From: an uncultured Candidatus Saccharibacteria bacterium
GTDB taxonomy: Bacteria; Patescibacteriota; Saccharimonadia; Saccharimonadales; Saccharimonadaceae
NCBI GenBank assembly: GCA_947305655.1
Contig: CAMZEA010000004.1
Location: 1-41,870, forward strand
DNA length: 41,870 bases
Reading direction: 5' to 3'
In this document: positions 9,432-24,629 of the stretch, piece after piece
How positions within the stretch are numbered: the stretch's first letter is position 1
Layout: the number at the start of each line of letters is the position of its first letter
Translations under genes and position numbers: made by a program
Notes under the pieces: model-generated
Told to the model about the DNA's origin: nothing
Database searches by the model: none
Seen by the model: the letters and a program-made list of their open reading frames with translations, nothing else

Positions 9432-9440
9432 AGCCCTCTA

Positions 9441-9461
9441 ATTATAGCATTTTGGTATAAT
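9441..9461. promoter_or_regulatory. Back-to-back extended -10 promoters of sufC and the 9469 gene
   Basis: ATTATA (9441-9446; minus-strand TGC-TATAAT) and TGG-TATAAT (9453-9461, plus) face away from each other nine bases apart. The sequences where -35 boxes would lie match no -35 consensus, and the two polymerases could not bind together. Confidence 0.78.
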
Positions 9462-9468
9462 GAAATTA

Positions 9469-9936
9469 ATGGGAGCATCTGTAAAAATGAGCATCGACGG
9501 GCGCAAAACCGCGATTTTTAACGCCTACGAGGTGCCAGAGGATTTTCAAGCAAGAATCAATGACTTAATCGCAAAAATGGAGGAACTCGGCAAGGGCTGC
9601 AAAGATAGCGCCGACTTCGAGGCGAAGTTTGCTAGCTCGCCGCTGAACGCCGAATATACGCAATTATTTACCGACCTCGCGATGGGCGGAGCCAAGTGCA
9701 AGTATGGTCCAGCACCGGGCGAGATTGAGGAAGTCGACCAAGCAGAGGTCGCAAAGGATCTCGCAAAGGATTACGCCGAGATGGAAGTCGAAGGCGCCGT
9801 TCAACACGTGCGCGGTCGTGCATACCGTGCGGCCGAGAGTAAAGTGCGCGATATACCAGTGTTCGGCGACGCGATTGACGCGAAGCGCAAGTTTGATTTC
9901 TTTAAAACAATCACAGGAGGCAATAATGAAGAATAG
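9469..9936 (+). CDS. Conserved-looking cytoplasmic protein, unknown
   Basis: 155 residues, no membrane segment, acidic and helical, ending in a GGNNEE tail. No family recognised. The start at 9469 is chosen because it lies seven bases after TATAAT; an earlier ATG at 9460 lies inside the -10 box and cannot be in the mRNA. Its 3' end contains AGGAGG and overlaps the next gene by 11 bases, so it is cotranscribed with the rhodanese-like gene. Confidence 0.7.
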   Translation: MGASVKMSIDGRKTAIFNAYEVPEDFQARINDLIAKMEELGKGCKDSADFEAKFASSPLNAEYTQLFTDLAMGGAKCKYGPAPGEIEEVDQAEVAKDLAKDYAEMEVEGAVQHVRGRAYRAAESKVRDIPVFGDAIDAKRKFDFFKTITGGNNEE

Positions 9937-10609
9937 TAGAATTATTTTCGGCAGCCTAATCGCCGCCATCGCGGTCGTAGCGGGCCTAGCGCTCGGTAGC
10001 TTGCTCTGGCAAAAGAGAGTGCCGGCGCTGCCAAAGGCCGAAGTCGCAAATAATGAACGCGGCCAAACTTTTGGCATTGATAAGAATATTAACGAAGCGA
10101 GCATTGATAAGTATCTCGATCGCGACGACGTCGTCTACCGCGATATGCGCATGCTCGAAGACCCGGCAGAATACGAGAAGATTGACGGCGACAGATTTCT
10201 ATCTGGCATCGTCGAGGGATTCGAAGTTACGCCACTTCCTTACCTCGTGAACGTCGAGGGGCTTCCTGAGGCTGTCGGCAAAACCTACGAAGGACCGACG
10301 CTATTTACCGTAGCGGATGGCAAATATACCGCAAATTACAAAGAATCGAAGCGAATTCTCGAGGACTTATTCCCGAAAGATAAAAATATCTTCCTGATGT
10401 GTGGCGGTGGTGGCTACGCCGGCATGACGAAGCAAATGCTCGTTTCGCTTGGCTGGAATGCGGACAAGCTCTATGTCGTCGGCGGTTACTGGTACTACGA
10501 AGGCGAGCACGATATTAAGATCAAGCAAGACGACGGTAGTTTCGCGTTCTGGAAATTGGCTTATCACGATATCGACTTTAATAAGCTAACCGAGGTCCTT
10601 GATGACTAA
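9926..10609 (+). CDS. Membrane-anchored rhodanese-like protein
   Basis: 227 residues: an N-terminal signal anchor (about 5-28), then an exported rhodanese fold. The catalytic loop is LMCGGGGYAGMTKQ (Cys159), followed by LGW...VVGGYWYYEG, which matches the C-x-x-G-x-x-S and GG ending of rhodaneses. Such domains carry persulfide sulfur or act in thiol redox reactions. ATG at 9926 has AGGAGG five bases upstream, within the previous gene. It overlaps the following thioredoxin-like gene by eight bases, which suggests a joint extracytoplasmic redox role. Confidence 0.82.
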   Translation: MKNSRIIFGSLIAAIAVVAGLALGSLLWQKRVPALPKAEVANNERGQTFGIDKNINEASIDKYLDRDDVVYRDMRMLEDPAEYEKIDGDRFLSGIVEGFEVTPLPYLVNVEGLPEAVGKTYEGPTLFTVADGKYTANYKESKRILEDLFPKDKNIFLMCGGGGYAGMTKQMLVSLGWNADKLYVVGGYWYYEGEHDIKIKQDDGSFAFWKLAYHDIDFNKLTEVLDD

Positions 10610-11072
10610 AATCGCCAAGCGCTGGCTGATAGGGGGCGCGATTGGACTAGCGGTTCTCTTCGCTGCGGCCTTTACGGTCGCCATCATTATCCCGCACGAT
10701 TCGCGCGTACGCCTCGAATCTTATGGCAAGAGTGAGTCGGTTTTACTCGACGACAAAGAGTACGAACAGATGATCGCAGACAAGCGCTCATTTCTCGTTA
10801 TGGTGAACCGGCCAGGGTGCATTAGGACGGACGACATGAGCACTTGGTTTCTGGAATATCCCGAGGAAATGCAGTTTAAATACTACTCCATGAGCTGGGC
10901 GCATGCGAAGGATACGAGCCTACACAATTATGTGAAATATGCGCCATCGATTGCTGTGATTCGTAGCGGAGAGGTCATTGCCTGGCTCGACGCCGACTCC
11001 GAAGAAGACGAGAAATATTTTGGCGACCCAGAGGAGCTCAAGACTTGGCTGAAAAAGTATATAATTTTCTAG
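10602..11072 (+). CDS. Membrane-anchored thioredoxin-fold protein with incomplete active site
   Basis: 156 residues: transmembrane anchor (about 9-30) and an exported domain that resembles thioredoxin. LVMVNRPGCIRTDD stands where WCxxC would be, with only Cys73 left, and YAPSIAVIRSGEVI matches the cis-Pro strand (Pro115). It cannot form the usual two-cysteine disulfide and may act as a one-cysteine or binding domain. ATG at 10602 is preferred over the TTG one codon earlier. It is coupled to the rhodanese-like gene. Confidence 0.72.
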   Translation: MTKIAKRWLIGGAIGLAVLFAAAFTVAIIIPHDSRVRLESYGKSESVLLDDKEYEQMIADKRSFLVMVNRPGCIRTDDMSTWFLEYPEEMQFKYYSMSWAHAKDTSLHNYVKYAPSIAVIRSGEVIAWLDADSEEDEKYFGDPEELKTWLKKYIIF

Positions 11073-11082
11073 CCGAGAGTAG

Positions 11083-11088
11083 TATAAT
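11083..11088 (+). promoter_or_regulatory. Likely promoter of the glycan operon and its leader
   Basis: TATAAT at 11083-11088; the -35 is unclear. The leader of about 95 bases contains a TCTTAA/TTAAGA stem (11131-11136 with 11149-11154). It ends with a perfect tandem repeat AATAGTGG-AATAGTGG (11168-11183) directly before the ATG, where a normal ribosome binding site is missing. Confidence 0.55.
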
Positions 11089-11183
11089 AGTAAAAAGCTA
11101 ATAATTATTTTACAGATTGCGCCGAGCGAGTCTTAACTGCGAATGGATTTAAGAGATCCGCCCGGAAAATAGTGGAATAGTGG

Positions 11184-11828
11184 ATGAGTAAAAAACATAA
11201 GCAAAATTTGGCTTACCGCGCCGCGAAGAGGACTTTTGATGTGCTCGTCTCGTGTATCGGTTGCATTTTTTTGCTGCCACTAACACTGATTGTGAAGATT
11301 GTCTACCTCGCGCATGGCGATAAGCACTCAATCTTCCTCGAACACTACCGCGTCGGCAAGAATGGTAAGATTTTCCGCATTCGTAAGTTCCGCACAATGG
11401 TCCCCGGCGCCGAAGCAATGCTTGACAAGCTAAAGAAAGACCCGAAGTATCGCGACGAATTCAAGAAGTACGGCAAAATTCAGGACGACCCACGCGTCAA
11501 TAAATATAGCCGCTTCTTGCGAAAGTCTAGCCTCGACGAACTGCCGCAGCTCTATAACATCATTGCGGGGCACATGTCGCTCGTCGGGCCACGTCCACTC
11601 GTTGAAGGCGAGCTGGATGAGTTTGGCGGCGACCATAAGCGCTACGAGTCGATGAGGCCAGGTCTCACCGGCTGGTGGGCGGTTAATGGCCGCAGCGATA
11701 TCGATTACAAGAAGCGCCTCGAGCTCGAATATTACTATGTCGATCATGCTAGCATCGGCCTAGATATAAAAATCATCTTCAAGACATTCGGTGCCGTTTT
11801 TGGTGGCGAAGGTAAGGGTGCGAAATAA
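11184..11828 (+). CDS. Initiating sugar-phosphate (polyprenol-phosphate) transferase
   Basis: 214-residue bacterial sugar transferase of the short PglC/WbaP-core type: one hydrophobic segment (about 18-42), then RVGKNGKIFRIRKFRTM (56-72), SSLDELPQLYNI with the catalytic Asp118-Glu119 pair, MSLVGPRPL, and RPGLTGWWAVNGR (158-170). It transfers a sugar-1-phosphate to undecaprenyl phosphate on the inner face of the membrane and so starts glycan assembly. It is first in the operon; its stop overlaps the next start (TAATG). Confidence 0.93.
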   Translation: MSKKHKQNLAYRAAKRTFDVLVSCIGCIFLLPLTLIVKIVYLAHGDKHSIFLEHYRVGKNGKIFRIRKFRTMVPGAEAMLDKLKKDPKYRDEFKKYGKIQDDPRVNKYSRFLRKSSLDELPQLYNIIAGHMSLVGPRPLVEGELDEFGGDHKRYESMRPGLTGWWAVNGRSDIDYKKRLELEYYYVDHASIGLDIKIIFKTFGAVFGGEGKGAK

Positions 11829-12622
11829 TGTCCGAGTTTGCCAAGATCATCATCGCTACGCACAAGAAGTACGATATGCCGAAGGACAAGATTTATCTGC
11901 CAGTACGCGTAGGCGCCGCGCTCGCCGATGACGATTTCGGCTACCAGCGTGACGACGAGGGCGAGAACATCTCCGCGAAGAACCCTTATTATTGCGAGCT
12001 CACCGGTCTTTACTGGGCCTGGAAGAATTGCGACGCAAAGTATATCGGACTAGTGCACTATAGGCGTTACCTAGGCATGAGGAAGACTCACGCAACAACG
12101 CCAGCTGGGCGCATGAAGAAAGTGCTGACCGAAGCACAGCTACGCCTGCTCCTCGCCGATAACGACATTATTTTGCCGAAGAAGCGTAATTATTACGTGG
12201 TCAATCTTTATGACCACTACGCGAATACTATGTACGTCGAACCGCTCGACGAGCTCCGCAAGATCATCATGAGCGATTATCCGGAATATTATGCCGAGAT
12301 GCGCAAGCTCGAGAAACGCAAGACCGCGCATATTTTTAATATGTTCGTCATGCGGAAGGATATTCTCGACGATTACTGCAAGTGGCTATTCGAGATTCTC
12401 GGTAAACTCGAGAAGAAAATTGATGCAACGAAGTATAATGCCTTCCATGCGCGCGTCTATGGGCGTTTATCCGAGTGGCTTCTAGATGTCTATATCCGGA
12501 CGAACAAGCTGAAGTTTGTCGAGGTGCCAGTGATTAATATTGAAGGCGAGAGCTTCGTGAAGAAGGGCGTGGGGTATGTTGCGTCGAAAGCTCTTGGGAG
12601 GAAGTATGAAAAAAGCTACTAA
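11828..12622 (+). CDS. DUF4422-type glycosyltransferase
   Basis: 264 residues with the DUF4422 pattern: an early IIATHK, PYYCELTGLYWAWKN, GLVHYRRYL, and a later NMFVMRKDILDDYCKWLF. Members of this family occur in capsule and O-antigen loci and are presumed to transfer a sugar in the cytoplasm. Codon use (AAG, CTC, GAC) matches the flanking chromosome, unlike the next seven kilobases. Confidence 0.85.
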   Translation: MSEFAKIIIATHKKYDMPKDKIYLPVRVGAALADDDFGYQRDDEGENISAKNPYYCELTGLYWAWKNCDAKYIGLVHYRRYLGMRKTHATTPAGRMKKVLTEAQLRLLLADNDIILPKKRNYYVVNLYDHYANTMYVEPLDELRKIIMSDYPEYYAEMRKLEKRKTAHIFNMFVMRKDILDDYCKWLFEILGKLEKKIDATKYNAFHARVYGRLSEWLLDVYIRTNKLKFVEVPVINIEGESFVKKGVGYVASKALGRKYEKSY

Positions 12623-13622
12623 AGATACCCTCGTCTCCATAATAGTACCGGTTCATAATGCCGAGAAATACCTCGACGATTGCATAAGCTCTCTTACCGA
12701 GCAAACATATGCCCACATAGAGATAATTTTAGTAGACGACGGCTCGACTGATGACAGCAAAAATATTTGCAGTAAATGGGCCATGAAAGATAAGCGCATA
12801 GTCACTTTAAGCCAGCATAATCGAGGCGTGTCCACCGCAAGGAATCATGGATTATCCAAAATCCGCGGTGACTATGTCGCGTTTGTGGATGCTGATGATT
12901 GGGTCGATAAGGATTATATCAACTCCCTCTTGACTGAAATTAAAAAGACCAAGGCAGATATCTGTATTTGCGGCTATAACAGAATCTCCGGCGCCGTCTC
13001 TGAAGAGTTCCAAAATGCAACAACCAAAATCAATGCCCGCGATTTTTTCCTCGGCATTTTGCGCATTCAGACCGGTTTCGGCGTATGCTATTGTAAAATA
13101 TATCGTTCGGATATTGCAAAAAAAATCGCGTTCAACGAAAAACTAGTCGTAGGCGAAGATGCCCTGTATAATCTCGAGATTTCCGAGTCCGTTAGCAAAA
13201 TAGCCGTAATCAAGCCGGCTCTCTACAATTACCGAGTTAATAATAATTCCGTCGTGCATTCTTACGATAGCAACTACGACAGAAAATATCTGCACTCGAT
13301 GGAAGCGGCGAAAGCCATAATCGAACGCCATTACAAAAATGATGATGAAGTGTCCGACTCTTTCTCAAGCTATATCGCCTTCCATGCCATGCTGGTTGCC
13401 GTAAATTTTTGCTGTAACCCTAAAACGCAGCACAAAATACGTAGCCTTAAATTGACAATGTCGAAACAGCTTTTTCGCTTCGGAATAAAAAACAGTCGCT
13501 ACAGATTTTTCCCAAAAACAAAACAAGTCGTACTTTTTTCTCTAAAACATAGATTATATGCCCTATGCGCCCTACTGTGCTCATATAGGCAGCGCCAAAA
13601 CAGAACCCAAGGAGGGCAATAA
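12606..13622 (+). CDS. Family 2 glycosyltransferase
   Basis: 338 residues. The GT-A fold is clear: VSIIVPVHNAEKYL, VDDGSTDDS, and FVDADDWVDKDYI. It uses a nucleotide sugar to extend the lipid-linked glycan. ATG at 12606 is chosen because GGGAGGAAG lies just upstream; it overlaps the previous gene by 17 bases. From here codon use turns A/T-rich (AAA, ATA, TTA), and an A8 run occurs at 13118-13125. Confidence 0.92.
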   Translation: MKKATKDTLVSIIVPVHNAEKYLDDCISSLTEQTYAHIEIILVDDGSTDDSKNICSKWAMKDKRIVTLSQHNRGVSTARNHGLSKIRGDYVAFVDADDWVDKDYINSLLTEIKKTKADICICGYNRISGAVSEEFQNATTKINARDFFLGILRIQTGFGVCYCKIYRSDIAKKIAFNEKLVVGEDALYNLEISESVSKIAVIKPALYNYRVNNNSVVHSYDSNYDRKYLHSMEAAKAIIERHYKNDDEVSDSFSSYIAFHAMLVAVNFCCNPKTQHKIRSLKLTMSKQLFRFGIKNSRYRFFPKTKQVVLFSLKHRLYALCALLCSYRQRQNRTQGGQ

Positions 13623-13625
13623 GAC

Positions 13626-14732
13626 ATGGCGACTAGAGTTCTCATTTTTGGGATAACTGACGTTATGGGCGGCATGGAGAGCGTAATTATGAACTATTAT
13701 CGCAATATTGATCGTAGCTCCATCCAATTTGACTTCCTATGTAATACTAAAAAGGTCGCATATGAGGACGAAATTACCAGTATGGGCGGTCGTATTTTTA
13801 GAATTACCGCGAGAAGCAAGGATTTTACTAAGTATAAAAAAGACATCAAATCATTTTTTGAGAAACACGCAAAAGATTACTCATGCATTTGGGTAAATAC
13901 GTGCAGTCTCGCCAATGTCGACTATTTGAAATACGCAAAAAAATACGGAATCAAAAAAAGAATAGTACATTGCCACATATCCCAAAACATAGACTCGTTG
14001 GTTCGTGGTCTTCTTCACAAATGGAACAAGCTGTTCATAAAAAGATACGCTACGGATTTCTGGTCATGCTCGCGGTCCGCCTCTGGTTATTTTTATAGCA
14101 AATCTATTCTTACATCCAATAATTATCATTTAATAAATAACGCCATTGACGTCAGGAACTTCTCTTTTAACAATTCCGCACGAAGCAGAATGCGAAAGGC
14201 GCTCGGGATAAGAAACGAACTAGTCATCGGTAACATTGGCAGATTTTGCGCACAGAAGAATCAGCCGTTTTTAATAGACATTTTCAACTCAATTACGATG
14301 AGCTTGCCAAACGCGCTCCTTATTTTAGTCGGCGAAGGAGGCGATAAAGAGTTGTTGTTGAATAAAGTGGATCGATTGGGCCTGAAAAACAATGTCTTGT
14401 TTTTAGAGCCAAGAACCGACATACAAGACTTATTGCAAGCGATAGATATTGTTATAGCCCCGTCTCTATGCGAAGGATTGAGCCTCTCTTTGCTCGAGGC
14501 GCAAGCCAGTGGTGTCCCAGTTTTCACCTCCTCGAGCGTTTCGCGTGAGTGCAAAATGTCCGACTATATTTATTTTTATGATTTATCCATGCCTAGCTCG
14601 ATGTGGGCTCAGAAAATCCTGGACGTAATTAGCAAGTGCGACAAAAGGGAGTCTAGAGTAAACTATATACGGCAAAAGGGGTTTGATATATCCGCGGAAT
14701 CAAGAAAAATGGAAAAATACCTGACATGTTGA
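13626..14732 (+). CDS. Family 4 glycosyltransferase
   Basis: 368 residues with a GT-B fold: N-terminal GGMESVIMNYYRNID (acceptor side), NIGRFCAQKNQ, and the donor-binding EGLSLSLLEAQASGVPVF with the E-x7-E motif. It is a retaining transferase that adds a sugar to the growing unit. The stop overlaps the next start by seven bases. Confidence 0.92.
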   Translation: MATRVLIFGITDVMGGMESVIMNYYRNIDRSSIQFDFLCNTKKVAYEDEITSMGGRIFRITARSKDFTKYKKDIKSFFEKHAKDYSCIWVNTCSLANVDYLKYAKKYGIKKRIVHCHISQNIDSLVRGLLHKWNKLFIKRYATDFWSCSRSASGYFYSKSILTSNNYHLINNAIDVRNFSFNNSARSRMRKALGIRNELVIGNIGRFCAQKNQPFLIDIFNSITMSLPNALLILVGEGGDKELLLNKVDRLGLKNNVLFLEPRTDIQDLLQAIDIVIAPSLCEGLSLSLLEAQASGVPVFTSSSVSRECKMSDYIYFYDLSMPSSMWAQKILDVISKCDKRESRVNYIRQKGFDISAESRKMEKYLTC

Positions 14733-16903
14733 GCACACAATTATCCGCTAAGCTCCGGCCCCTTTTAAAATGCTTATTTTTTGCTGGATACTCGATATTG
14801 CTAATAACCGATAGCTGCAAGAAAATCGGGTTCATCAATGATTCGCGCCACATCCTAAACGCGGTCGCTTATTCTTTTTTGGTTATTTGCGGCGCGCTTT
14901 CACTATCGCACGAGCTGAAGCATAACATTCGGAGCAGAAAACTTTTCATCATGCTATTATCTTGGATAATCGGCCTTGCGACTTTTCTCGCAAGCAACAA
15001 TTTTACTTTTGTTAGAATCGCGATTGTCATAACGTCCGTCGGTTGTCTCGATTTTAAAGAAACCGTATGCGCAGATCTGCTACTTAAGTGTGTCATTTTC
15101 TGCGCCCTAATTGCACTGCCGCTGCTTAATCTGATGCCGTTCACCACACTCCTTCGAGCTGACGGTTCAGTTCGCTATGCATTCGGCTTCGAGCATCCGA
15201 ACGCATTGAGCACCTATATATTCTCTATCGTGTCGGATATGCTAATCTTATATTTCATCGATAAAAAAGGCACGAAGGTCCGCGATATGTTATTTGCCGG
15301 TTTTGTCGCAATGATGGCATTCTCGTCGTATTTCGTAATGAATTCGCAAGCAGCAACATTAGCCCTTGTTTTAATCTCAATATACTTATTGCTGCATAAT
15401 TTCATTAACAGGATGCTCTGCAATAAGGCCATGCTTCTTTTACTGAGGAATACATTTATCTTATTATCCGTCATAACATTCTCTTTAACGCTATTATCTT
15501 TTATAAACCCCAGCGCCCGTTCATTCCTCGACAAACTATTTAGCAATAGATTCAGTAATTTCTTGACGTATATAGGCCACACTGGCTTTTCCTTTTTTGG
15601 CACCTCTAGGCCTTATTCTATCAACGGCGCCTATCTAGATAGCATGGCATTGGGCTCGCTGCTAAACTTTGGGATTGCTGCTTTCGGTTTTCTCTGCGTC
15701 ATTACGCGAAAAAGCCTCGACCGTATGTTCCGAGACAATCGCCCTGAAACCGCATTCCTATTCATTATTGCTTTGTTTTTAGGTTTTACAGATACAAACA
15801 TGATGCTACCGACGCAGAATATCCTTCTAGTTTATTTCGCTTTTCTGAACACGAGAGATCCGTCGTCTGCGCCACAAGCGAGTTATTCCTCTGCAAGGAA
15901 TATCTATTTCTGCACAACTTACTATCATGTATTAATTGCGACAGTCAAAGAGATAGTCGCCAAGAGTCAAGACCCCATGATCGCGCTCTGCTCAAACTGG
16001 GGAGATCGTTCGCTAGTAGCAGACAATAGGCTACTCGCCCGCCTAAAGAAAAGCAACGTGTTTTCCGACATAACTACCCTAGATATATTCAAAATATACG
16101 GCGTCTCCGACAATATCAACGAGGTGTCGGCAATAACCAAACTGAAGATAATGGAATCATACAAAAAACAGCCGCTCGTCGAAATTCCGGTCAACTCAAA
16201 TGTTTTTCTTTTTAGCGACGCTGCATTTATAGGTCGAATTATTAATCATTGCGGCTATAAATACCATTTAATCGAAGATGGACTAGACTGCTTCATAAGT
16301 AACGCCAAAAACATAAAGGCAAGGCGCGGCATTCATTACGCGCTTAAGCGTCTTCTTGGGATGCGAGATATGGGCGAATCCAAGAATATAATTGACGTGG
16401 AAGTCAACAATAAGTCTGGCGTAAATCTACCAAACAAGGTAATAGAAGTCCCCAGGAAGTCCCTTTTCTCCAAGTTAAGCGTCGAAGATAAGCAGATTAT
16501 CGTGAGTATTTTCTTGCCAAAAATTCCTTCTAGGGATTTGTCCCTAGCATCCATTATCATTACTCAACCCTTCTATGACGACGGTTTCCTCGATAGCGCA
16601 AAGCAACAAGTTAGGCTCTATGGCGAGATAATAAGAAACTATTGCCATTCTAGCGAAGTTATCATCAAAATGCATCCTAGAGAGACAACAGACTATTCGC
16701 CTATCGCCAAATCAAAAAGAGTTATCATCCTTAAAGATAAATACCCTATTGAATTGCTTAATTTTCTCCCTAACACCCATTTTGGCACCGCAATTACCGT
16801 GAGCTCGACATCTCTTTCGACACTGAACGCCAATAATAAAATATTACTGGGCTGGGAATACTTAGATAACTTCAAGAAGGAGATTCGCAGTGGAAAAAAA
16901 TAA
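14726..16903 (+). CDS. Wzy-like polymerase fused to GT52/sialyltransferase-like domain
   Basis: One unbroken 725-residue frame. Residues 1 to about 388 are a polytopic membrane part with about ten helices and the O-antigen polymerase feature RYAFGFEHPN, plus a large loop and GAYLDSMALGSL. Residues from about 391 start a cytosolic domain: IYFCTTYYHVLIA, LIEDGL (near 517), KMHPRE (near 648) and TVSSTSLSTL. These resemble GT52 and polysialyl transferases that use CMP-sugars. So one protein may both add the nonulosonic acid and polymerise. The domain calls are from motifs only. I do not know this fusion from other organisms. Confidence 0.82.
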   Translation: MLSTQLSAKLRPLLKCLFFAGYSILLITDSCKKIGFINDSRHILNAVAYSFLVICGALSLSHELKHNIRSRKLFIMLLSWIIGLATFLASNNFTFVRIAIVITSVGCLDFKETVCADLLLKCVIFCALIALPLLNLMPFTTLLRADGSVRYAFGFEHPNALSTYIFSIVSDMLILYFIDKKGTKVRDMLFAGFVAMMAFSSYFVMNSQAATLALVLISIYLLLHNFINRMLCNKAMLLLLRNTFILLSVITFSLTLLSFINPSARSFLDKLFSNRFSNFLTYIGHTGFSFFGTSRPYSINGAYLDSMALGSLLNFGIAAFGFLCVITRKSLDRMFRDNRPETAFLFIIALFLGFTDTNMMLPTQNILLVYFAFLNTRDPSSAPQASYSSARNIYFCTTYYHVLIATVKEIVAKSQDPMIALCSNWGDRSLVADNRLLARLKKSNVFSDITTLDIFKIYGVSDNINEVSAITKLKIMESYKKQPLVEIPVNSNVFLFSDAAFIGRIINHCGYKYHLIEDGLDCFISNAKNIKARRGIHYALKRLLGMRDMGESKNIIDVEVNNKSGVNLPNKVIEVPRKSLFSKLSVEDKQIIVSIFLPKIPSRDLSLASIIITQPFYDDGFLDSAKQQVRLYGEIIRNYCHSSEVIIKMHPRETTDYSPIAKSKRVIILKDKYPIELLNFLPNTHFGTAITVSSTSLSTLNANNKILLGWEYLDNFKKEIRSGKK

Positions 16904-18344
16904 CGAAAGAGGCGAAGCGGTAAAAGCGGGCGTCTGGTATACTCTTTCGAATTTCCTTATTAAAGGATTAGCGTTTTTAACAATGCCAATCTTTACTCGC
17001 ATCATGTCGAGCTATGACATAGGCATTTTTTCAAATATTATTTCCTGGTTTAATATTTTAGCAATTATCGCCACCTTTGAAATTTATTCTTCGGTCGCAA
17101 TCGCTCGGTTCGATTACAAAAAGGATTTAGATTCATACATCTCATCATCACTAGTACTAGGTTCAGTTATTACATTGGGTTTTTATCTCCTTGCGCTCAT
17201 ATTCCACACTTACGTAGAGCAACTGCTAATGATAAACTTCACGACCCTAAATATCATCTTCATATACCTTCTGGTATATCCAGCGATTCAGATGTATCAG
17301 ATGAAAAATCAAATACAATATAAGTACCGGCCGATTATCATTACTTCCCTCCTGAGCGCCCTCCTCTCCACTTTTCTCTCGATTCTACTCGTAGTCTTAT
17401 CAGCAGACAAACTCATGGGGCGCGTGATTGGCTATTTTGCTCCCTTAATAGCAATGTCTGCCGTCATATACGTCGTCCTATTAGCAAACGGAAGGAGTAT
17501 ATCGAGAAAATATTGGAGGTACGCCTTGGCTATTTCCTTCCCGTTAATCTGGCATCTATTGGCCGGCTACCTTCTGAGCTCGGCTGATAAAATTATGATC
17601 ACGAAGATGATCTCGCCAGAAGCTAACGCGTCCTATAGCGTAGCCTATACAATATCTTCTATAGCATCAATCCTCTGGGCGTCAATGAATAATGCTTGGT
17701 CTCCATGGGCTTATAAAAGAATGGACGAGAAAGATTACACTTCGCTCAAAAAGAGCTCTAAGCCCTACACGTTTTTCTTTGTAGCGATAGTATTCCTGCT
17801 GTTATTAATAACTCCCGAACTGCTCCTAATAATGGGAGGAGAGAAATATGTGCAGGCAAAATATGTCATGCCGCCAGTTATGATTGGCTACGTGTTTCAG
17901 TTTATATATTCCCTGTACGTTAACATCGAATTTTACCATAAGAAGCAAAGGAATATCGCAATCGGCACGATTATAGTAGCTTTCCTTAATATCGGACTAA
18001 ACTTCATATTTATCGGGTTATTTGGATATATAGCAGCTGCGTATACGACGCTTATTGGCTATCTGTGCCTGTTAGCCATTCATTTTTACTTAGTGAAAAG
18101 ACTAAAATGCACAGGCTGGTATGACACTAAGTTCTTTTTAAAGATATCACTGGCCGCCTTAGCGTATATACCCGTCTGCTCGCTGCTATACTCCAATAAT
18201 ATGATGCGGTATACCTTCATAGCCGCCTTAGCTGCCATTCTCTCTCTCATCCTCATAGTTAATCGCAAGAAGATAGGAGGGCTGACTAAAAGCGTTCCGC
18301 TGTTCAAAAAAGTGTTATCATTAATGAAGAAAGAAGACAACTAA
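16890..18344 (+). CDS. Wzx-type polysaccharide flippase
   Basis: 484 residues with about twelve to fourteen transmembrane helices. The N-terminus (AGVWYTLSNFLIKGLAFLTMPIFTRIMSSYDIG) is typical of the polysaccharide transport family. It flips the finished undecaprenyl-linked unit outward. GTG at 16890 is the start, backed by AAGGAG eight bases upstream; it overlaps the polymerase gene by 14 bases, and its stop overlaps the next ATG. Confidence 0.93.
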   Translation: MEKNNERGEAVKAGVWYTLSNFLIKGLAFLTMPIFTRIMSSYDIGIFSNIISWFNILAIIATFEIYSSVAIARFDYKKDLDSYISSSLVLGSVITLGFYLLALIFHTYVEQLLMINFTTLNIIFIYLLVYPAIQMYQMKNQIQYKYRPIIITSLLSALLSTFLSILLVVLSADKLMGRVIGYFAPLIAMSAVIYVVLLANGRSISRKYWRYALAISFPLIWHLLAGYLLSSADKIMITKMISPEANASYSVAYTISSIASILWASMNNAWSPWAYKRMDEKDYTSLKKSSKPYTFFFVAIVFLLLLITPELLLIMGGEKYVQAKYVMPPVMIGYVFQFIYSLYVNIEFYHKKQRNIAIGTIIVAFLNIGLNFIFIGLFGYIAAAYTTLIGYLCLLAIHFYLVKRLKCTGWYDTKFFLKISLAALAYIPVCSLLYSNNMMRYTFIAALAAILSLILIVNRKKIGGLTKSVPLFKKVLSLMKKEDN

Positions 18345-19957
18345 TGAGAATACTAGCTATTATCCCGGCAAGGGCCGGTTCAAAAGGCATCCCTAATAAG
18401 AATATCCGGATCATCGGAGGCCACCCTCTTGCATATTACGCCATTAATAATGCAAAAATGTCGAAACGCATCACCGATATTGTCGTGAGTACGGATTCGC
18501 CAGAAGTAATGCTTATCGCGAAGCAAATGGGGGTGCCCGTAAGAGAAAGAGATCCCGCATTATGCGGTGACAGTACAACTCTAGATTCGGTCGTTTTCGA
18601 CGCTATTCCGAAAGGCGAAACCTACGACTATGTCGTCACTATGCAACCGACCAGCCCTACCCTAAAGACGGAAACGTTGGATAAAGCAATTGATCACGCG
18701 ATCAGCGGTGACTATGATACCGTCATTTCCGCAATCAATAAACCCCACCTATCCTGGCGCGATGGCGACAATGGAAAGAAACTTCCAAACTATAAAGAGC
18801 GTCTCAATCGTCAGTACTTGCCCGCTAATTATCTCGAGACGGGAGCCTTCGTTATCTCTAAAACAAGCTGCGTCAGCAATACTAGCCGTATTGGAGATAA
18901 AGTTGACATATTCGAGGTGCAGGAAGATGAAGCCCTAGATATCGATTCGTTTTTCGATTTACAAAACGCCGAAATGGCCCTTCAGAATAAAACAGTAGCT
19001 ATATATGTGAACGGCAACGGCGCTCGGGGGACTGGCCATATCTATCGAGCACTGGAGCTCGCAGACGAGTTTCTCGTAAAGCCAGACATCTATTTTGATG
19101 TCAACCAAACAAATCGCGACTTATTCGGCAAAACGACCCACTCATTAATCCCCGTCAACGGCATAAACGAGCTATTTGAAATCTGTAAGAAAAAGAATTA
19201 CAGTATTTTCATCAATGACATTCTAAATACGAGCGTCGATTATATGTTTGCCCTTCGCAATGTTCTACCAGAAGCAAAAATTGTCAATTTCGAGGATGAC
19301 GGAGAGGGCGGTCGCTATGCTGACTTTGTTTTTAATGCGCTATATACCGAGAGCGAATATAAGAACGTCTACGCCGGCCACAAGTACTATATTTGCGCAA
19401 AACCATTCTTATTCTTCGAACCGATCAAAATTAACGAGAAGGTCAAGAATATCTTGGTTACTTTCGGCGGGGCAGATCCGATGAGATATACAGAGCGCGT
19501 TCTAGATATTATCGAGAAAGATGAGTATCTGAATTATAACTTCACTATAGTCCTCGGCAAAGCAAAGAATGAAGAAGAAATATTAAGCAAATATGGTAAT
19601 CACGCTAATATTAAAATATTAAAGAATATTACGAATATGGCCGAAATCATGAGCTCAAACGATATCGCGATCACGTCTCGCGGCCGTACAGGGTATGAAC
19701 TGGCCATCCTCGGCATACCGACCATCGCTATGGCGCAAAACAAGCGCGAAGAGCAGCATAGGTTCATTTCGGAGGAGAATGGTTTTGAATATCTAGGTTC
19801 CGATCCGAGTAGTGAAATAATCGAGGGAACTTTGAAGACATATTTAAGCTTAAGCTCAGACGCACGAAAACAGCTCCAGGCTCGCATGCTTCATAGCGAT
19901 TTAAAAGACGGCAGAGGCAGAGTGATGAGCATAATTAACAATGGCTATTTCCTCTAG
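18344..19957 (+). CDS. CMP-nonulosonate synthetase fused to PseG-like hydrolase
   Basis: 537 residues, two enzymes in one. Residues 1 to about 215 match NeuA/PseF/LegF cytidylyltransferases: IPARAGSKGIPNKN, MQPTSP and LDIDSFFDLQNAE. Residues from about 217 match PseG, the UDP-sugar hydrolase of pseudaminic acid synthesis: RGTGHIYRALELA (with the catalytic-type His in GTGH), ILVTFGGADP and GRTGYELAILGIPTIAMAQN. The N part should activate the acid with CTP; the C part should release the six-carbon sugar that the NeuB-type enzyme condenses with PEP. The dehydratase, aminotransferase and acetyltransferase steps are not in the window. Confidence 0.9.
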   Translation: MRILAIIPARAGSKGIPNKNIRIIGGHPLAYYAINNAKMSKRITDIVVSTDSPEVMLIAKQMGVPVRERDPALCGDSTTLDSVVFDAIPKGETYDYVVTMQPTSPTLKTETLDKAIDHAISGDYDTVISAINKPHLSWRDGDNGKKLPNYKERLNRQYLPANYLETGAFVISKTSCVSNTSRIGDKVDIFEVQEDEALDIDSFFDLQNAEMALQNKTVAIYVNGNGARGTGHIYRALELADEFLVKPDIYFDVNQTNRDLFGKTTHSLIPVNGINELFEICKKKNYSIFINDILNTSVDYMFALRNVLPEAKIVNFEDDGEGGRYADFVFNALYTESEYKNVYAGHKYYICAKPFLFFEPIKINEKVKNILVTFGGADPMRYTERVLDIIEKDEYLNYNFTIVLGKAKNEEEILSKYGNHANIKILKNITNMAEIMSSNDIAITSRGRTGYELAILGIPTIAMAQNKREEQHRFISEENGFEYLGSDPSSEIIEGTLKTYLSLSSDARKQLQARMLHSDLKDGRGRVMSIINNGYFL

Positions 19958-20025
19958 TCGCGCTCATTTCCTCATTTATCACCTTTATCATATGTTTATG
20001 TGTCAGTAAAACCAGACAGTGGTGT

Positions 20026-20054
20026 TTCAAACTAATTCGAATCGATAGTATAAT
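20026..20054 (+). promoter_or_regulatory. Promoter of the neuB-like gene
   Basis: TTCAAA (20026-20031), a 17-base spacer and TATAAT (20049-20054). AGGAGC precedes the ATG at 20076. The gap 19958-20075 holds no terminator that I can see, so read-through from the upstream operon is likely. Confidence 0.7.
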
Positions 20055-20075
20055 TAATAAAATAGGAGCAAAGCA

Positions 20076-21119
20076 ATGAGAACAACTAAACCATACCTAA
20101 TCGCCGAAATGGGCGTCAATTTCTACGATACCGCTAAGGAGCTAAATATTACTCCGCTTGAAGCCGCAAAGCTGTACATTGATAAGGCGTCCGATGCCGG
20201 CATTGATTGCGCGAAATTTCAATCATACAAGGCTAATACTATTGTTTCAAAGAACTCTCCGGCCTATTGGGACACGACAAAAGAGCCGACAAAAACACAA
20301 TACGAGCTGTTCACCAAATTCGATAGTTTCGGGGAAAAAGAATATCGAGAGCTTTGCGACTATACGCACAGTAAGGGAATGGACTTCACATCTACTCCTT
20401 TCGACTATGCTTCGGCCGACTATCTTTATGATATGGTAGATTTTTATAAGATCTCGTCTTCGGATCTTTCCAATATCCCTTTTATACGACATATTGGCTC
20501 AAAGGGGAAACCAGTTATCCTCTCCGTCGGCGCATCGTATTTATCCGAGGTCGACGAGGCGGTCAGGGCACTATCCGAGTCTGGCTGCCAAGACATAACG
20601 ATATTGCATTGCGTATTATCATACCCGACTGCTCCAGAAAATGCCAACCTTAGAATTATCAAAACTCTCCACGAAGTTTTCCCAAACATAAAAGTCGGCT
20701 TTAGCGACCATGTCGCCCCAGATAAATCGATGATGACTCTCGCTACCGCCTACCTTATGGGTGCCGACGTCATCGAAAAACACTTTACGCTAAATAAGCA
20801 CCTGAGGGGAAACGACCACTACCACTCTGGCGACCCAGACGATTTTAGGTTAGCTATAGCGAATTTCAAATGGATCGACGAAGTGCTTGGCGACGGCGAA
20901 AAAACCGTTCTCGACTGCGAGAAAATTCCACGAAGAGAAGCTCGAAGATCGTTAGTTCTCACTAGAGACATGAAATGCGGAGAAGCGATTACGCCTAATG
21001 ATATAATGCCAAAAAGGCCAGGCACCGGCATTTCGCCTATCTATACGGATATAGTCATAGGTCGCAAAGTAGTTAAAGACCTTCCAGAGGACACTATTCT
21101 TCAATGGGATATGGTATAA
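20076..21119 (+). CDS. neuB: NeuB-type nonulosonic acid synthase
   Basis: 347 residues. An N-terminal TIM barrel carries IAEMGVN, KFQSYKA, FYKISSSDLSN, HCVLSYPTAPENANL, GFSDHV and EKHFTL; the C-terminal part (about 283-347) is a SAF/antifreeze-like domain. NeuB-family enzymes condense PEP with ManNAc or a diamino-trideoxy hexose to give sialic, legionaminic or pseudaminic acid. Given the PseG-like domain upstream, a pseudaminic-type product (PseI role) is the best guess. It overlaps the acyltransferase gene by 16 bases. Confidence 0.9.
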   Translation: MRTTKPYLIAEMGVNFYDTAKELNITPLEAAKLYIDKASDAGIDCAKFQSYKANTIVSKNSPAYWDTTKEPTKTQYELFTKFDSFGEKEYRELCDYTHSKGMDFTSTPFDYASADYLYDMVDFYKISSSDLSNIPFIRHIGSKGKPVILSVGASYLSEVDEAVRALSESGCQDITILHCVLSYPTAPENANLRIIKTLHEVFPNIKVGFSDHVAPDKSMMTLATAYLMGADVIEKHFTLNKHLRGNDHYHSGDPDDFRLAIANFKWIDEVLGDGEKTVLDCEKIPRREARRSLVLTRDMKCGEAITPNDIMPKRPGTGISPIYTDIVIGRKVVKDLPEDTILQWDMV

Positions 21120-22183
21120 AACCCTCGTCTACCTCCAACAAGCACAACGATAAACGCTTGCTATATCTAGATACTCTGAATATTGTCGCAATCATAGCAG
21201 TCTTACTTATGCACCACAACGGCAATGTTCATTCTTTCAGCCAATCATCGAGCTGGATTACGTCGCTGGCCGTCGAGACCGTCTTTTACTTCGCCGTGCC
21301 AGTATTCATTATGATTACTGGAGCGACGCTGCTTGGCTACCGCCAGAAGTATGACACAAAAACCTACTTCAAGAAGCGTTTCGCCAAGGTGCTCATCCCG
21401 TCAATCGCATGGATGATAATAATGTTTTGCTGGCATGTCTTTATTCGTAAAGATTTGGCCATAACCGACTGGTCGCCGGCGAGCATTTTGAATATTTTCA
21501 CTGCTAGCCGCGAAAATACCGTTTATTACTATCTGTTTGTAATACTAGGCCTTTATCTTACAATCCCATTATTTGCGCCTCTCGCGGAAAAGAAATACCG
21601 CAAGTTGCTTTGGTATGGCGTAGTCGCATTCTTCGTCTTTAATGCTCTATTGCCGAATCTGTCTGCCCTTGTCGGTATAAACTACAACAGCGATTTTAGC
21701 GTCAGAATTGGTTCCTATGTCGTCTATTTGTTCCTCGGATATCTCTTGAGTACGGCGAAAATTCAAAAGAAATACCGTATTCTGCTGTACTTGGGGGGGG
21801 TCCTCGCCATCATTTGGCGTTATACGACTACGCTTAACGCTTCGTTTGCGCACGGATATCTCGTCAAAACAACCTGGGGCTACACCCAGTTCCACACGAT
21901 TATTCTTGCTTCTGCGGTTTATGTATTTGTCAAGAACCTCCCGCTCGACAAGGTCTCCGAGAAAGCAAAAGCCATCCTCGCAAAACTAGCTAGCTGCAGC
22001 TTCGGGATATATCTCTGCCATATGATGGTCATGTATTACGAAGGCGGCGTTCTTAAGAGGCTCGGCTTGCCAACTGGCTCCTGGATTTACCGCTTCCTCT
22101 GCCCATTTCTCACTTACGCTCTTTGCGTCGGGCTAGTTCTAATCCTCAAAAAGATCCCGTTCTTACGCCGCATCGTCCCATAA
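21104..22183 (+). CDS. Membrane acyltransferase (acyltransferase 3 family) with G8 tract
   Basis: 359 residues with about ten transmembrane helices. The N-terminus has LLYLDTLNIVAIIAVLLMHH, the family's catalytic-type His after the first helix. Such enzymes O-acetylate surface sugars. Eight G residues in a row lie at 21793-21800 (codons for LGGV); loss or gain of one G would truncate the protein near its middle. ATG at 21104 has no strong ribosome binding site, so translation is probably coupled to neuB. Confidence 0.87.
   Translation: MGYGIKPSSTSNKHNDKRLLYLDTLNIVAIIAVLLMHHNGNVHSFSQSSSWITSLAVETVFYFAVPVFIMITGATLLGYRQKYDTKTYFKKRFAKVLIPSIAWMIIMFCWHVFIRKDLAITDWSPASILNIFTASRENTVYYYLFVILGLYLTIPLFAPLAEKKYRKLLWYGVVAFFVFNALLPNLSALVGINYNSDFSVRIGSYVVYLFLGYLLSTAKIQKKYRILLYLGGVLAIIWRYTTTLNASFAHGYLVKTTWGYTQFHTIILASAVYVFVKNLPLDKVSEKAKAILAKLASCSFGIYLCHMMVMYYEGGVLKRLGLPTGSWIYRFLCPFLTYALCVGLVLILKKIPFLRRIVP
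21793..21800. repeat. G8 homopolymer inside the acyltransferase gene
   Basis: The longest G run I saw in the window, in a surface-modification gene. Such tracts are classic sites of slipped-strand phase variation in other bacteria. Confidence 0.7.
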
Positions 22184-22186
22184 GTG

Positions 22187-22195
22187 TGCTACAAT
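22187..22195 (+). promoter_or_regulatory. Extended -10 promoter upstream of the VanZ-like gene
   Basis: TGC-TACAAT starts four bases after the acyltransferase stop. It predicts an RNA start near 22202 and a leader of almost 150 bases. A second TATAAT lies at 22261-22266, just after two tandem repeats, and may be another promoter. Confidence 0.6.
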
Positions 22196-22209
22196 AATAA
22201 TAAGCATTA

Positions 22210-22325
22210 ACGGTCTGACCCACCGTAGATGTGGAGTGTGAACACGTGGAGTGTGATCACTATAATCAAAAAGCGGCTCTTTATCCGCCAGGCTATGGAC
22301 ATGAGGCCTGGCGGATGCCGCATCT
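22210..22325 (+). other. Structured leader element of unknown class
   Basis: Helix 1: ACGGT/ACCGT (22210-22214 with 22222-22226). Helix 2 follows directly: AGATGTGG (22227-22234) with CCGCATCT (22318-22325). Helix 3: a perfect 11-base stem, ATCCGCCAGGC (22283-22293) with GCCTGGCGGAT (22306-22316). Inside helix 2, 22231-22260 is two tandem 15-base units differing by one base, each able to form GTG-TGAW-CAC. I do not match it to a known riboswitch or RNA family. No Shine-Dalgarno precedes the VanZ-like ATG at 22349, so this element may control its translation. Confidence 0.6.
22231..22260 (+). repeat. Tandem 15-base repeat, two units
   Basis: GTGGAGTGTGAACAC followed by GTGGAGTGTGATCAC. It lies just before a TATAAT box and within the structured leader, so it could be a protein operator or an RNA element. 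Confidence 0.75.
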
Positions 22326-22348
22326 AGGCCTATGCGCCCCGCACAATC

Positions 22349-22915
22349 ATGAAGAAAACTACGAAGATCAAAATCGCGAAGATTGTCGCAATCTGTCTCG
22401 TTGCCATTCTCTGGATGGGCGGTATTTTTAAGCTTTCTAGTATGAATTCCGACAATTCTAACGGTCACAGTACTGATATTCTCGCCGTCTTTATCGAGGA
22501 TACACTAGAGGTAACAAATAAGGCCGGCATCACAAATTCCAATCCTAGTGACAAGAAGCTCGCGAAAGCGACGAAACTCATTAATGCCCCGCTACGCAAA
22601 GTCATGCACGCGAGCGTTTACTTCATCCTCGCCTTTATCGTCATGCTCGTATGCGGCATCATTTTCGACCATAATCGCTACGCGCTAAGCTGCATTATTG
22701 CTTTCTGCGTGGCCGCTATTTTCGCCTGTACTGACGAATTTCACCAAACTCTAGTGCCAGGACGCACCGGCCAAGCCCTAGACGTTCTCATCGATTCTGC
22801 GGGCGCCGCAGCAGGAATTTTGTTTTATTCTACCTATCGTTTTGCGTACTGCCTAGGCATGCGCCATCAAAAAGCATTAACCAATAAGGAGAAAGTGGAT
22901 GCCAAGCAAGAGTAG
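22349..22915 (+). CDS. VanZ-family membrane protein
   Basis: 188 residues with four predicted helices and the VanZ pattern: LWMGGIFKLSS near the first helix, KVMHASVYFILAFIVML, and DEFHQTLVPGRTGQALDVLI before the last helix. VanZ-like proteins bind or affect envelope components; the exact activity is unsettled. It is translated after a long structured leader without a visible ribosome binding site. It overlaps the LCP gene by 17 bases, which ties it to wall-glycan attachment. Confidence 0.88.
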   Translation: MKKTTKIKIAKIVAICLVAILWMGGIFKLSSMNSDNSNGHSTDILAVFIEDTLEVTNKAGITNSNPSDKKLAKATKLINAPLRKVMHASVYFILAFIVMLVCGIIFDHNRYALSCIIAFCVAAIFACTDEFHQTLVPGRTGQALDVLIDSAGAAAGILFYSTYRFAYCLGMRHQKALTNKEKVDAKQE

Positions 22916-24629
22916 CAAATCCATCGACGGCCTGACGAGGAAGCCAGCCGCCAAGAAGCCGGCAGCAAAGAAGCCAGCTAAGAAACCAGTCGCAAAGAAG
23001 CCTGTCGCTATCAAGGTAACGGACCTCGACGCGCAGCCAGTAGTCGCCGAGCCGATTGTCGAGGAGCCAGTAGCGGCCCCGGCCGAACCAGAAACGCCTG
23101 TCACTGACGATATCTCCGCCGAGATTGCTAACCTCGAGAAATCTGAACCAGAGATGACTGCCGAGCAGCCTGCTGCAAAGAAGGCCATAAAGAAGCATAG
23201 CCTCGCCTCTAAGATTATTTGCCTCGTACTTCTCCTTGCCGAGGCAGTAACTGGCGGACTCTTTATCTACGCTCTCCTTAAGCTCAACGTACTCGCCGAC
23301 TGGCAGAACTACGCGATTATCGTAGTAATGGTTCTACTCTTCCTATTCACGACGCGCAAGCTCACAAAGAAGAAAGCCAAGAACGTCACTCGCATCATCT
23401 GCTGCGTCATCGCCGGCCTACTCGCTATCGGCTACGGCGTCGGGTTCTACTATATCAGCACCGTTTCTAGCTTCCTCCAGAAGATTACGACCATCGACAA
23501 TACTGAGACCCAGGAATATTCCGTCGTCGTCTACAAAGATAGCGGCATCAAGAAGATCGAGAAACTAGCCGGCAAGAATATCGGCTTCCAGAGCGGCAAC
23601 ATCCACCTAAAGCTCGCTGAAAACAAGCTCAAAGAAGCCGTCAAATACTCAAAGAAGGAATATGACGACCTTGCCAGTATCTTCATCGATATGGATAATG
23701 GTACGCTTTCTGCCGTCTCGATGGCCTCTAGCTATCTCGAGGTGCTCAAGGAAGACGCAAAGGATTATTACGACAAGCTAAAGGTTATCTATACCTACGA
23801 GATCGAATTCGAGAAGGAAAAGAAGACAACGAAGAAAGTCGATATGGAAAACGAGCCATTCGTTATCTATATCAGTGGTACCGACTCTAGAAACGGCGTG
23901 AAGGCGACCGCGCGTAGCGACGTTAATATGCTTGCCGTCATCAACCCAAAGAAAAACAAAATCCTCCTCGTTTCTGTCCCGCGCGATTATTACGTCCAGC
24001 TCCACGGCACCACTGGCAAGAAGGACAAGCTCACGCACGCCGGCATTTATGGTATCGACATGAGCAAGAACACGATGTCCGACCTCTTCGGCGGCGTCGA
24101 GATTGCTCACACCGTCAAGGTTAGCTTCAAGACCGTCGAAAACCTCGTAAACGCGGTCGATGGTATCGACATTTACTCCGACCAATCCTTCACGGCATGG
24201 ACTGATCGTAGCTGCCGCATCCCGAAGGGCGACATTCACTTAGACGGCCGCTGCGCACTCGCATTCAGCCGCGAACGCATGTCTTACTCTACCGGCGATC
24301 GTCATCGCGTAGAAAACCAGCAGAACGTCCTCACGGCCATTCTAAAGAAGGCAACGAGTATTCAGTATATCGTAAACTATCCAAGGCTCCTCAGCGCCAT
24401 TGAGGGCACTTTCCAGACCAGCCTTAGCTACGAGGACATCACAGGGTTCGCTAAGATGCAGATGAACACGATGAAGAACTGGGAAATCGAGCAATATAGC
24501 GTAAATGGCTCCGGCAGCACCCAGCCGACTTATAGTATGGGCAGTCAGCCGCTCTATGTGATGATCCCGGATCAGAATACCGTCAACGAAGCTATTACGA
24601 AGATTCAGGACACCCTCTCCACTAAGTAG
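22899..24629 (+). CDS. LytR-CpsA-Psr (LCP) cell-wall glycan ligase
   Basis: 576 residues. N-terminal tail with Ala-Lys-Pro repeats (about 12-36) and an acidic stretch, three transmembrane helices (about 102-128, 135-153, 165-188), an accessory extracellular domain (about 205-310), then the LCP domain from about 320: ISGTDSR, RSDVNMLAVINP, SVPRDYYV, LTHAGIYG and FSRERMSYSTGDRHRVENQQ with the Arg residues that bind pyrophosphate. LCP enzymes move lipid-linked glycans onto peptidoglycan. It is the likely last step for the polymer made by this locus. GGAGAAAG precedes the ATG. Confidence 0.93.
   Translation: MPSKSSKSIDGLTRKPAAKKPAAKKPAKKPVAKKPVAIKVTDLDAQPVVAEPIVEEPVAAPAEPETPVTDDISAEIANLEKSEPEMTAEQPAAKKAIKKHSLASKIICLVLLLAEAVTGGLFIYALLKLNVLADWQNYAIIVVMVLLFLFTTRKLTKKKAKNVTRIICCVIAGLLAIGYGVGFYYISTVSSFLQKITTIDNTETQEYSVVVYKDSGIKKIEKLAGKNIGFQSGNIHLKLAENKLKEAVKYSKKEYDDLASIFIDMDNGTLSAVSMASSYLEVLKEDAKDYYDKLKVIYTYEIEFEKEKKTTKKVDMENEPFVIYISGTDSRNGVKATARSDVNMLAVINPKKNKILLVSVPRDYYVQLHGTTGKKDKLTHAGIYGIDMSKNTMSDLFGGVEIAHTVKVSFKTVENLVNAVDGIDIYSDQSFTAWTDRSCRIPKGDIHLDGRCALAFSRERMSYSTGDRHRVENQQNVLTAILKKATSIQYIVNYPRLLSAIEGTFQTSLSYEDITGFAKMQMNTMKNWEIEQYSVNGSGSTQPTYSMGSQPLYVMIPDQNTVNEAITKIQDTLSTK

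Follow-up and report, generated by a model that had tools for sequence, protein, structure and literature searches.

A capsule-type glycan locus with an exchangeable middle and a mobile NeuA-PseG and NeuB gene pair in an uncultured saccharibacterium

The surface-glycan locus and its exchangeable middle

The stretch of DNA analysed here (the window, 41,870 nucleotides) is the whole of contig 4 in the genome of an uncultured Candidatus Saccharibacteria bacterium (794,827 bases in 38 contigs, 89.7% complete), which is probably a tiny, parasitic or host-dependent organism with a reduced genome. Positions 11184–24629 hold 11 genes, all on the forward strand, which make up a surface-glycan locus of the Wzx/Wzy type, anchored by a LytR-CpsA-Psr (LCP) ligase and including synthesis of a nonulosonic acid (NulO) activated with cytidine monophosphate (CMP). 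The locus is of capsule type, with fixed ends (an initiating transferase and a DUF4422 protein on the left, a VanZ-like protein and the LCP ligase on the right) that enclose an exchangeable middle, which carries a mobile gene pair consisting of a NeuA-PseG fusion and NeuB. Judged from sequence, the locus, its cassette and a NulO-bearing glycan as its product are jointly likely. As a more tentative proposal, we suggest that the NeuA-PseG fusion and a NeuB of the KISSSD type might be a self-sufficient, mobile two-gene route from a common uridine diphosphate (UDP) sugar, most simply UDP-N-acetylglucosamine (UDP-GlcNAc), to a CMP-NulO, working without NeuC, epimerase, dehydratase or aminotransferase and distributed across Saccharibacteria, Bacteroidota, Pseudomonadota and the Firmicutes of the gut. 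The product would be either N-acetylneuraminic acid (Neu5Ac), made by a new step, or an undescribed NulO.

The exchange is seen directly against a sister genome of the same genus (G307, 99% complete), which lacks NeuB. The end genes are nearly the same in both genomes (98% identity for the initiating transferase and 97% each for the DUF4422, VanZ and LCP proteins), and blastn gives 91% nucleotide identity on both flanks. Homology ends at 12623, just past the stop codon of the DUF4422 gene, and restarts at 21986, within the acyltransferase gene. The replaced segment between these breakpoints (12624–21985, 9.4 kb) has a GC content of 42.5% and third-position GC of 0.47–0.49 for most of its genes, against about 49–50% and mostly 0.57–0.68 outside it. 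In its place G307 has unrelated genes for a LicD-like protein, a different GT2 glycosyltransferase, an 849-residue GT4 fusion, a distant flippase on the reverse strand and a 52%-identical acyltransferase, those of them without a family match being named by reading of the sequence. This alternative cassette occupies 7787–16902 of the G307 locus L102 (G307:C11:107500-127400), and three genes in the block, including a flippase-like and a polysaccharide-pyruvyltransferase-like one, run on the reverse strand.

Two further genomes of the genus, G218 and G443, keep the same set of end genes and again have different middles. The recurrence of the same ends with different middles in G307, G218 and G443 corresponds to the mode by which capsule loci switch type. 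The initial annotation had suggested that a sialic-like acid on the wall could serve host attachment or mimicry; variation of the capsule type accounts for the cassette swap no less well. In two other members of the genus (loci L103 of G451 and L105 of G241) the stretch before the LCP gene contains only a LicD-like gene, a glycerol-3-phosphate-type cytidylyltransferase and an acyltransferase, which suggests a teichoic-acid-like decoration instead.

The NeuA-PseG and NeuB gene pair

The NulO synthase of the pair (20076–21119, forward strand) belongs to the NeuB family, whose members perform the condensation with phosphoenolpyruvate (PEP), as indicated by matches to PF03102 (1.3e-72) and to the SAF/antifreeze-like domain PF08666 (2.1e-9). 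Read from the sequence alignment, the catalytic residues E11, K47, Q49, K125, Y183, H212, E234, H236, D247 and R314 are all conserved. The protein remains below the cut-offs of the named synthases, scoring 214 bits against 340 for pseudaminic acid (Pse) synthase PseI and 284 bits against 400 for N-acetylneuraminate synthase NeuB/NnaB (TIGR03569). A single NeuB position has been reported to separate neuraminic (Neu) and legionaminic (Leg) acid synthases, with Gly, from Pse synthases, with Phe (PMC7371886). In the window protein it is Ser129, instead of Gly and of the Phe present in all three Pse references, and it is Ser, within the motif KISSSD, in 77 of the 79 sequences of its clade. These 79 NeuBs form a single clade with a long stem (100/100) in our tree, apart from the Leg, Pse and meningococcal NeuB references. 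References were typed by their neighbours (LegB-LegC-NeuC for Leg, PseB-PseC-PseG for Pse), and plasmid NeuBs anchor the tree.

The window NeuB is 78–84% identical to homologues of rumen and gut Firmicutes (Lachnospiraceae, Eubacterium, Oribacterium and others) and is nested among them in the tree, together with Butyrivibrio LC3010 (99/82); further homologues occur in Prevotella and Succinivibrio. To judge from these relationships, the present middle was acquired horizontally, most likely from gut Firmicutes. Among 393 sampled genomes of the class only two have a NeuB match, the window genome and G024. The G024 gene (L007, G024:C10) sits beside a DegT aminotransferase gene at the end of a sequence that reads as very GC-rich and is partly masked, and we set it aside as likely contamination. 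Across the phylum as a whole, matches occur in 80 of 380 genomes sampled, some of them weak and several in open reading frames (ORFs) of 620–670 residues that represent fusions; NeuB in a bacterium of the candidate phyla radiation (CPR) is thus not new in itself and is unusual in this class.

The gene preceding NeuB (18344–19957, forward strand) encodes a bifunctional protein of 537 residues, comprising a CMP-NulO synthetase of the NeuA/PseF type (residues 1–215; CTP_transf_3, PF02348, 3e-23) and a PseG-like hydrolase domain of GT-B type (residues 216–537; TIGR03590, 8e-27). The CMP-sugar synthetase and PseG-like hydrolase that had been listed as separate genes are therefore both present, as two domains of one ORF. 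Its AlphaFold2 (AF2) model has a pLDDT of 92. The NeuA half is structurally nearest to CMP-Neu5Ac and CMP-Kdn synthetases (Z 26–28; 1eyr, Z 27.7), in agreement with its family match. The model of the second half adopts a GT-B fold near MurG (Z 24–25) and PseG (Z 22.8), which places it in the PseG/MurG-like group, and the closest solved structure by Foldseek is PseG 3HBM. PseG was not among the PDB matches of the fusion in a phmmer search; the link to MurG and PseG comes from the structure search. MurG is a UDP-GlcNAc enzyme; the MurG match in the window genome (G000:C1:16229-17386) spans one in-frame TAG, which might be an assembly error, a pseudogene or a split gene.

The best NCBIfam matches of the fusion are PseG and PseF, below every equivalog cut-off, and the PseG match reaches 94.5 bits against a cut-off of 153.6. 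The motif GxGHxxR is kept in the PseG-like domain of 42 of 42 aligned fusions. The R-x-D of Campylobacter jejuni PseG, of a bona fide PseG from a Pse locus and of the more distant group B fusions is absent and is replaced by Y-x-N throughout the clade of the domain. Profile searches thus do not place the NeuB-like and PseG-like proteins in unrelated families, and keep both under the equivalog cut-offs of every named NulO enzyme. Another fusion solution is found in a Pse locus of plasmid pSMR1-1 (L097, 2900–4444), where PseG is joined to a PseH-like GNAT acetyltransferase domain and adjoins PseI.

NeuA-PseG and NeuB stand together in 71 of 80 NeuB loci and no other neighbouring gene is conserved; they are a mobile gene pair. 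One of these loci belongs to a second saccharibacterium, RGIG5768 from sheep ileum (L034, contig JAFWIK010000026.1), where the order sialyltransferase, Wzx, NeuA-PseG, NeuB, with LCP downstream, is the same as in the window. Its NeuB groups with that of a metagenome-assembled genome (MAG) of a rabbit Bacilli (99/93) and not with the window NeuB, and forcing both saccharibacterial sequences together is rejected by the AU test (p = 0.019), so that two acquisitions are likely. The locus at L034 1270–17499 is a complete NulO capsule-type locus, running from an initiating transferase through the sialyltransferase, Wzx, NeuA-PseG, NeuB and LCP genes to tyrosine-kinase-like and PHP-phosphatase-like genes, and it appears to sit within the spc ribosomal protein operon, between apparent rpsH and rplF. 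Our incomplete coverage of the literature turned up no description of a NeuA-PseG fusion, nor of any nonulosonic acid in Saccharibacteria.

Precursor enzymes in carriers of the pair

Family searches of the window genome found no PseB-like or PseC-like gene (PseH was not searched), and none of NeuC, GlcNAc 2-epimerase (AGE) or NanE (PF02350, PF07221 and PF04131), which would supply N-acetylmannosamine (ManNAc) for Neu5Ac. The sole match to PF02719, taken as a PseB candidate, is GalE-like and was rejected. Contig C33 has the sole DegT homologue, next to a FemX-like gene; its score is 61 bits, where the PseC cut-off is 423.5. Hence neither a complete Pse or Leg pathway nor a complete Neu5Ac pathway is found in this 90%-complete genome.

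Seven carriers of the pair are without a credible PseC/LegC-type aminotransferase, NeuC, AGE or NanE above cut-offs: the window genome, RGIG5768, two rabbit Bacilli, a Eubacterium, a Clostridia and an Oscillospiraceae MAG. DegT genes are absent from them or present in traces, the window genome having its distant homologue. An eighth carrier, Duodenibacillus, has only a sub-threshold NeuC-like match, and the isolates Oribacterium C9 and KHPX15 are without NeuC and AGE and keep DegT genes that fall under the PseC cut-off. The absences thus recur in unrelated lineages, including several free-living carriers. It had been supposed that the missing early steps must be elsewhere in the genome, or that the host supplies the sugar. 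As stated, this finds no support: PseB-like and PseC-like genes, NeuC, AGE and NanE were not found here, and most of these are also missing in the second saccharibacterium and in several free-living carriers. The failure to find precursor enzymes in several carriers opens a third reading, namely that the pair needs none of them.

The putative polymerase-sialyltransferase fusion and the other genes of the locus

The protein annotated initially as the polymerase, 725 residues long, is a fusion in which no polymerase family is matched, only the membrane N-terminal half is Wzy-like and the C-terminal half is a sialyltransferase of GT52 type. The N-terminal half (14726–15880, forward strand; residues ~1–385) is a polytopic membrane domain that weakly resembles Wzy-like proteins encoded next door in other glycan loci, L091 (E 4e-5) and L092 (E 2e-4), the latter itself a weak match to the Wzy_C family PF04932; the motif FGFxHPN is common to this half and its weak homologues. 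A phmmer search of the whole protein against the PDB gave no match at all. The C-terminal half (15881–16903, forward strand; residues ~386–725) matches GT52 family PF07922 (1.1e-19; 71 bits against a cut-off of 26.1) and also the polysialyltransferase family PF07388 (8.5e-7). Its IEDG, KMHP and SSTS motifs align with three independent homologues, the first two being the D/E-D/E-G and HP motifs. Mutational work on bacterial sialyltransferases has shown that the EDG and HP motifs are indispensable (PMC2169525). With this GT52-type domain the locus has its own transferase for CMP-NulO, a domain that had been missed before and that strengthens the case for a predicted wall-anchored NulO glycan in a reduced genome of CPR type. 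In L034 the Wzy-like protein and the sialyltransferase are encoded by separate, overlapping genes.

The remaining families named in the initial annotation were recovered by Pfam and NCBIfam profile searches, in one direction and with E-values far beyond chance. The 11 genes of the locus lie on the forward strand and either overlap or are only a few bases apart, the exceptions being gaps of 119 bp upstream of NeuB and 166 bp upstream of the VanZ gene. The conserved left end begins with the initiating polyprenyl-phosphate hexose-1-phosphate transferase (PHPT), which has a WbaP-like catalytic domain (11184–11828; Bac_transf, PF02397, 2.3e-56), and its last gene encodes the DUF4422 glycosyltransferase-like protein (11828–12622; PF14393, 1.9e-86). 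Within the cassette follow a GT2 glycosyltransferase (12576–13622; PF00535, 2.6e-40; GC 42.4%), a GT4 glycosyltransferase (13626–14732; PF00534, 2.5e-21) that is 47% identical to a gene of the pair-bearing locus L025 of Mogibacterium and, after the fusion, a Wzx-type flippase (16890–18344; Polysacc_synt, PF01943, 6.9e-25) with 62–64% identity to the Wzx of L034, L021 and L038. An integral membrane acyltransferase 3 (21104–22183; PF01757, 5.1e-34), which likely O-acylates the glycan, contains the right cassette junction. The conserved right end consists of the VanZ-like membrane protein (22349–22915; PF04892, 6e-17) and the LCP ligase (22899–24629; LytR_cpsA_psr, PF03816, 1e-33, with the LCP domain TIGR00350 above cut-off), whose expected role of coupling the polymer to peptidoglycan links the locus to wall anchoring. 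Within the genus, 36 of 45 genomes have a match to the LCP ligase. Genus relatives also have a pair of LCP and BY-kinase genes about 50% identical to those on a contig named Saccharibacteria, from which we infer that the window genome is saccharibacterial.

Elsewhere in the window, two FemX-like genes, an alpha/beta hydrolase and a Mur-ligase-like gene lie consecutively at 29842–33822, probably forming a locus for the peptidoglycan cross-bridge. Scattered proteins at 5435–5971, 33931–34605 and 35226–36146 contain repeated segments resembling the C-terminal domain of RNA polymerase alpha (LGLSTRTLNTL, IGDLL and similar) and apparently constitute a lineage-specific family.

Proposed route and alternative explanations

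In the route that we propose, the glycosyltransferases of the cassette would build a lipid-linked oligosaccharide. The PseG-like domain would release a hexosamine by hydrolysis of a common UDP-hexosamine, NeuB would condense the freed hexosamine with PEP, and the NeuA domain would activate the product to CMP-NulO. The GT52 half might then move the NulO onto the lipid-linked repeat, after which Wzx would flip the repeat, the Wzy half polymerise it and the acyltransferase O-acylate it, and the LCP ligase would join the polymer to peptidoglycan. The order of reactions, the acceptor and the linkage are as we infer them. The preferred UDP-sugar would be UDP-GlcNAc, hydrolysed with inversion at C2 to ManNAc, leading to a Neu5Ac-type sugar. 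UDP-GlcNAc is preferred because the MurG-like gene suggests that a pool exists and because Bacillus subtilis SpsG offers a precedent. The SpsG step has been drawn as conversion of a UDP-gluco sugar to a manno sugar by hydrolysis and C2 inversion, and the protein is genetically required for legionaminic acid (PMC7439481); SpsG is also among the proteins used to identify PseG by homology (PMC13317340). UDP-GlcNAc as substrate and the exact identity of the NulO are speculative, and the UDP-GlcNAc step, taken alone, is a possibility that we would favour only with reserve. We also considered UDP-galactose and 6-deoxy-sugar substrates, which are set apart from UDP-GlcNAc solely by the lack of a dehydratase and an aminotransferase.

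Several observations weigh against a self-sufficient two-gene route and the glycan built on it. Canonical PseG does not invert C2, and PseC is found above cut-off in 11 of 50 carriers, possibly for flagellin. The carriers are drafts, most of them MAGs of unknown completeness, and with the window genome at 89.7% the absences reported above are provisional. Because of warnings about long branches in the NeuB reference tree, where the clade stands among the Neu, Leg and Pse synthases is uncertain, and only its separateness is claimed. The Wzy-like half has no Pfam or NCBIfam match by profile search, and its fold is poorly modelled (pLDDT of only 54 with three sequences). Incompleteness and the PseC-bearing carriers would also fit a canonical pseudaminic or legionaminic acid pathway, with PseB, PseC and PseH or LegB, LegC and LegH in the tenth of the genome that is not assembled, or present as diverged families, and with the PseG-like domain acting on a 4-acetamido-6-deoxy sugar. 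The top NCBIfam matches of the fusion (PseG and PseF) and the R-x-D retained in the more distant group B fusions point the same way. However, we regard this explanation as rather unlikely in view of the very low score of the sole DegT homologue, the GalE-like nature of the sole PF02719 match, the absence or mere traces of DegT in the second saccharibacterium and several Firmicutes carriers, and the Ser that stands where Pse synthases have Phe.

A reduced and probably host-dependent genome in which family searches found no ManNAc-forming enzyme (NeuC, AGE or NanE) might also suggest that the host bacterium or gut fluid supplies ManNAc or another hexosamine, which is here only condensed and activated, leaving the PseG-like domain as a passenger or as a hydrolase for repair. 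Decay would be the likely fate of a passenger, whereas this domain persists, GxGHxxR included, in every aligned fusion, among them those of carriers with ordinary genomes of 1.2–4 Mb; we therefore consider uptake improbable. That Firmicutes genes were misjoined into a CPR contig, as the Firmicutes-like middle of lower GC could be taken to indicate, has very little probability. Both operon ends are 97–98% identical within the genus and the sister cassette is filled differently at the same junctions; overlaps of a few bases run through the whole operon; the cassette proteins are 60–84% identical to those of Firmicutes and not ~100%; and the independent MAG with L034 has the same module flanked by saccharibacterial ribosomal genes. 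The absence of the cassette from the sister species could further mean that it was acquired recently, is non-functional and is being lost, but all 11 reading frames are intact and of full length with catalytic residues kept, which makes this hardly credible.

If the proposed two-gene route is right, two genes suffice to gain a sialic-like surface sugar, which would explain the presence of one in a 0.8-Mb genome, and gene-based predictions of which gut microbes have sialic-like sugars would need revision. The fusion of Wzy and sialyltransferase would couple polymerisation and sialylation in a single protein. The cassette swap amounts to a switch of capsule type in a lineage of CPR type whose members are thought to live on other bacteria, and it involves genes whose nearest relatives are found in gut Firmicutes. 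Host recognition, phage escape and gene exchange thereby become questions open to direct tests.

Comparison with known systems

In Gram-positive bacteria, Wzx/Wzy-dependent capsule loci such as streptococcal cps use LCP for anchoring and have middles that are specific to the serotype. The window locus shares with them the initiating transferase, glycosyltransferases, Wzx, a putative polymerase and LCP ligase, as well as fixed ends around an exchangeable middle, the latter seen directly against G307. It differs in its location in a reduced CPR-type genome, in the fusion of the Wzy-like domain with the sialyltransferase and in having no tyrosine-kinase regulator inside.

With the CMP-pseudaminic acid pathway (PseB, PseC, PseH, PseG, PseI and PseF) the locus has in common adjacent genes for a PseG-like hydrolase, a NeuB-family synthase and a CMP-transferase. 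In contrast to that pathway, PseB and PseC were not found here (PseH was not searched), the synthase is without the Phe of PseI, the hydrolase is without R-x-D and scores remain below equivalog level. In the legionaminic acid pathway encoded by B. subtilis sps (SpsM, SpsC, SpsD, SpsG, SpsE and SpsF; PMC7439481), SpsG, SpsE and SpsF match the PseG, NeuB and NeuA parts, and SpsE (1VLI) is the closest solved NeuB structure by sequence. However, no counterpart of SpsM or SpsC was found here (SpsD was not searched), NeuA and PseG are fused, and NeuB falls in another clade. Bacterial Neu5Ac capsule pathways (NeuC, NeuB and NeuA with a GT52 or GT38 sialyltransferase) likewise share NeuB, NeuA and a GT52-type sialyltransferase with the window, where NeuC was not found and NeuB lacks the KIGSGE motif and belongs to a clade of its own. 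The sialyltransferase domain resembles bacterial GT52 and GT38 enzymes in its D/E-D/E-G and HP motifs and in a GT52 score above cut-off (PMC2169525), and differs from them in being fused behind a Wzy-like membrane domain. The general kind of locus is therefore known, and what is unusual is the putative polymerase-sialyltransferase fusion, the fact that cassettes switch within the lineage, and the repeated occurrence of a mobile two-gene CMP-NulO module in genomes that show no known precursor pathway.

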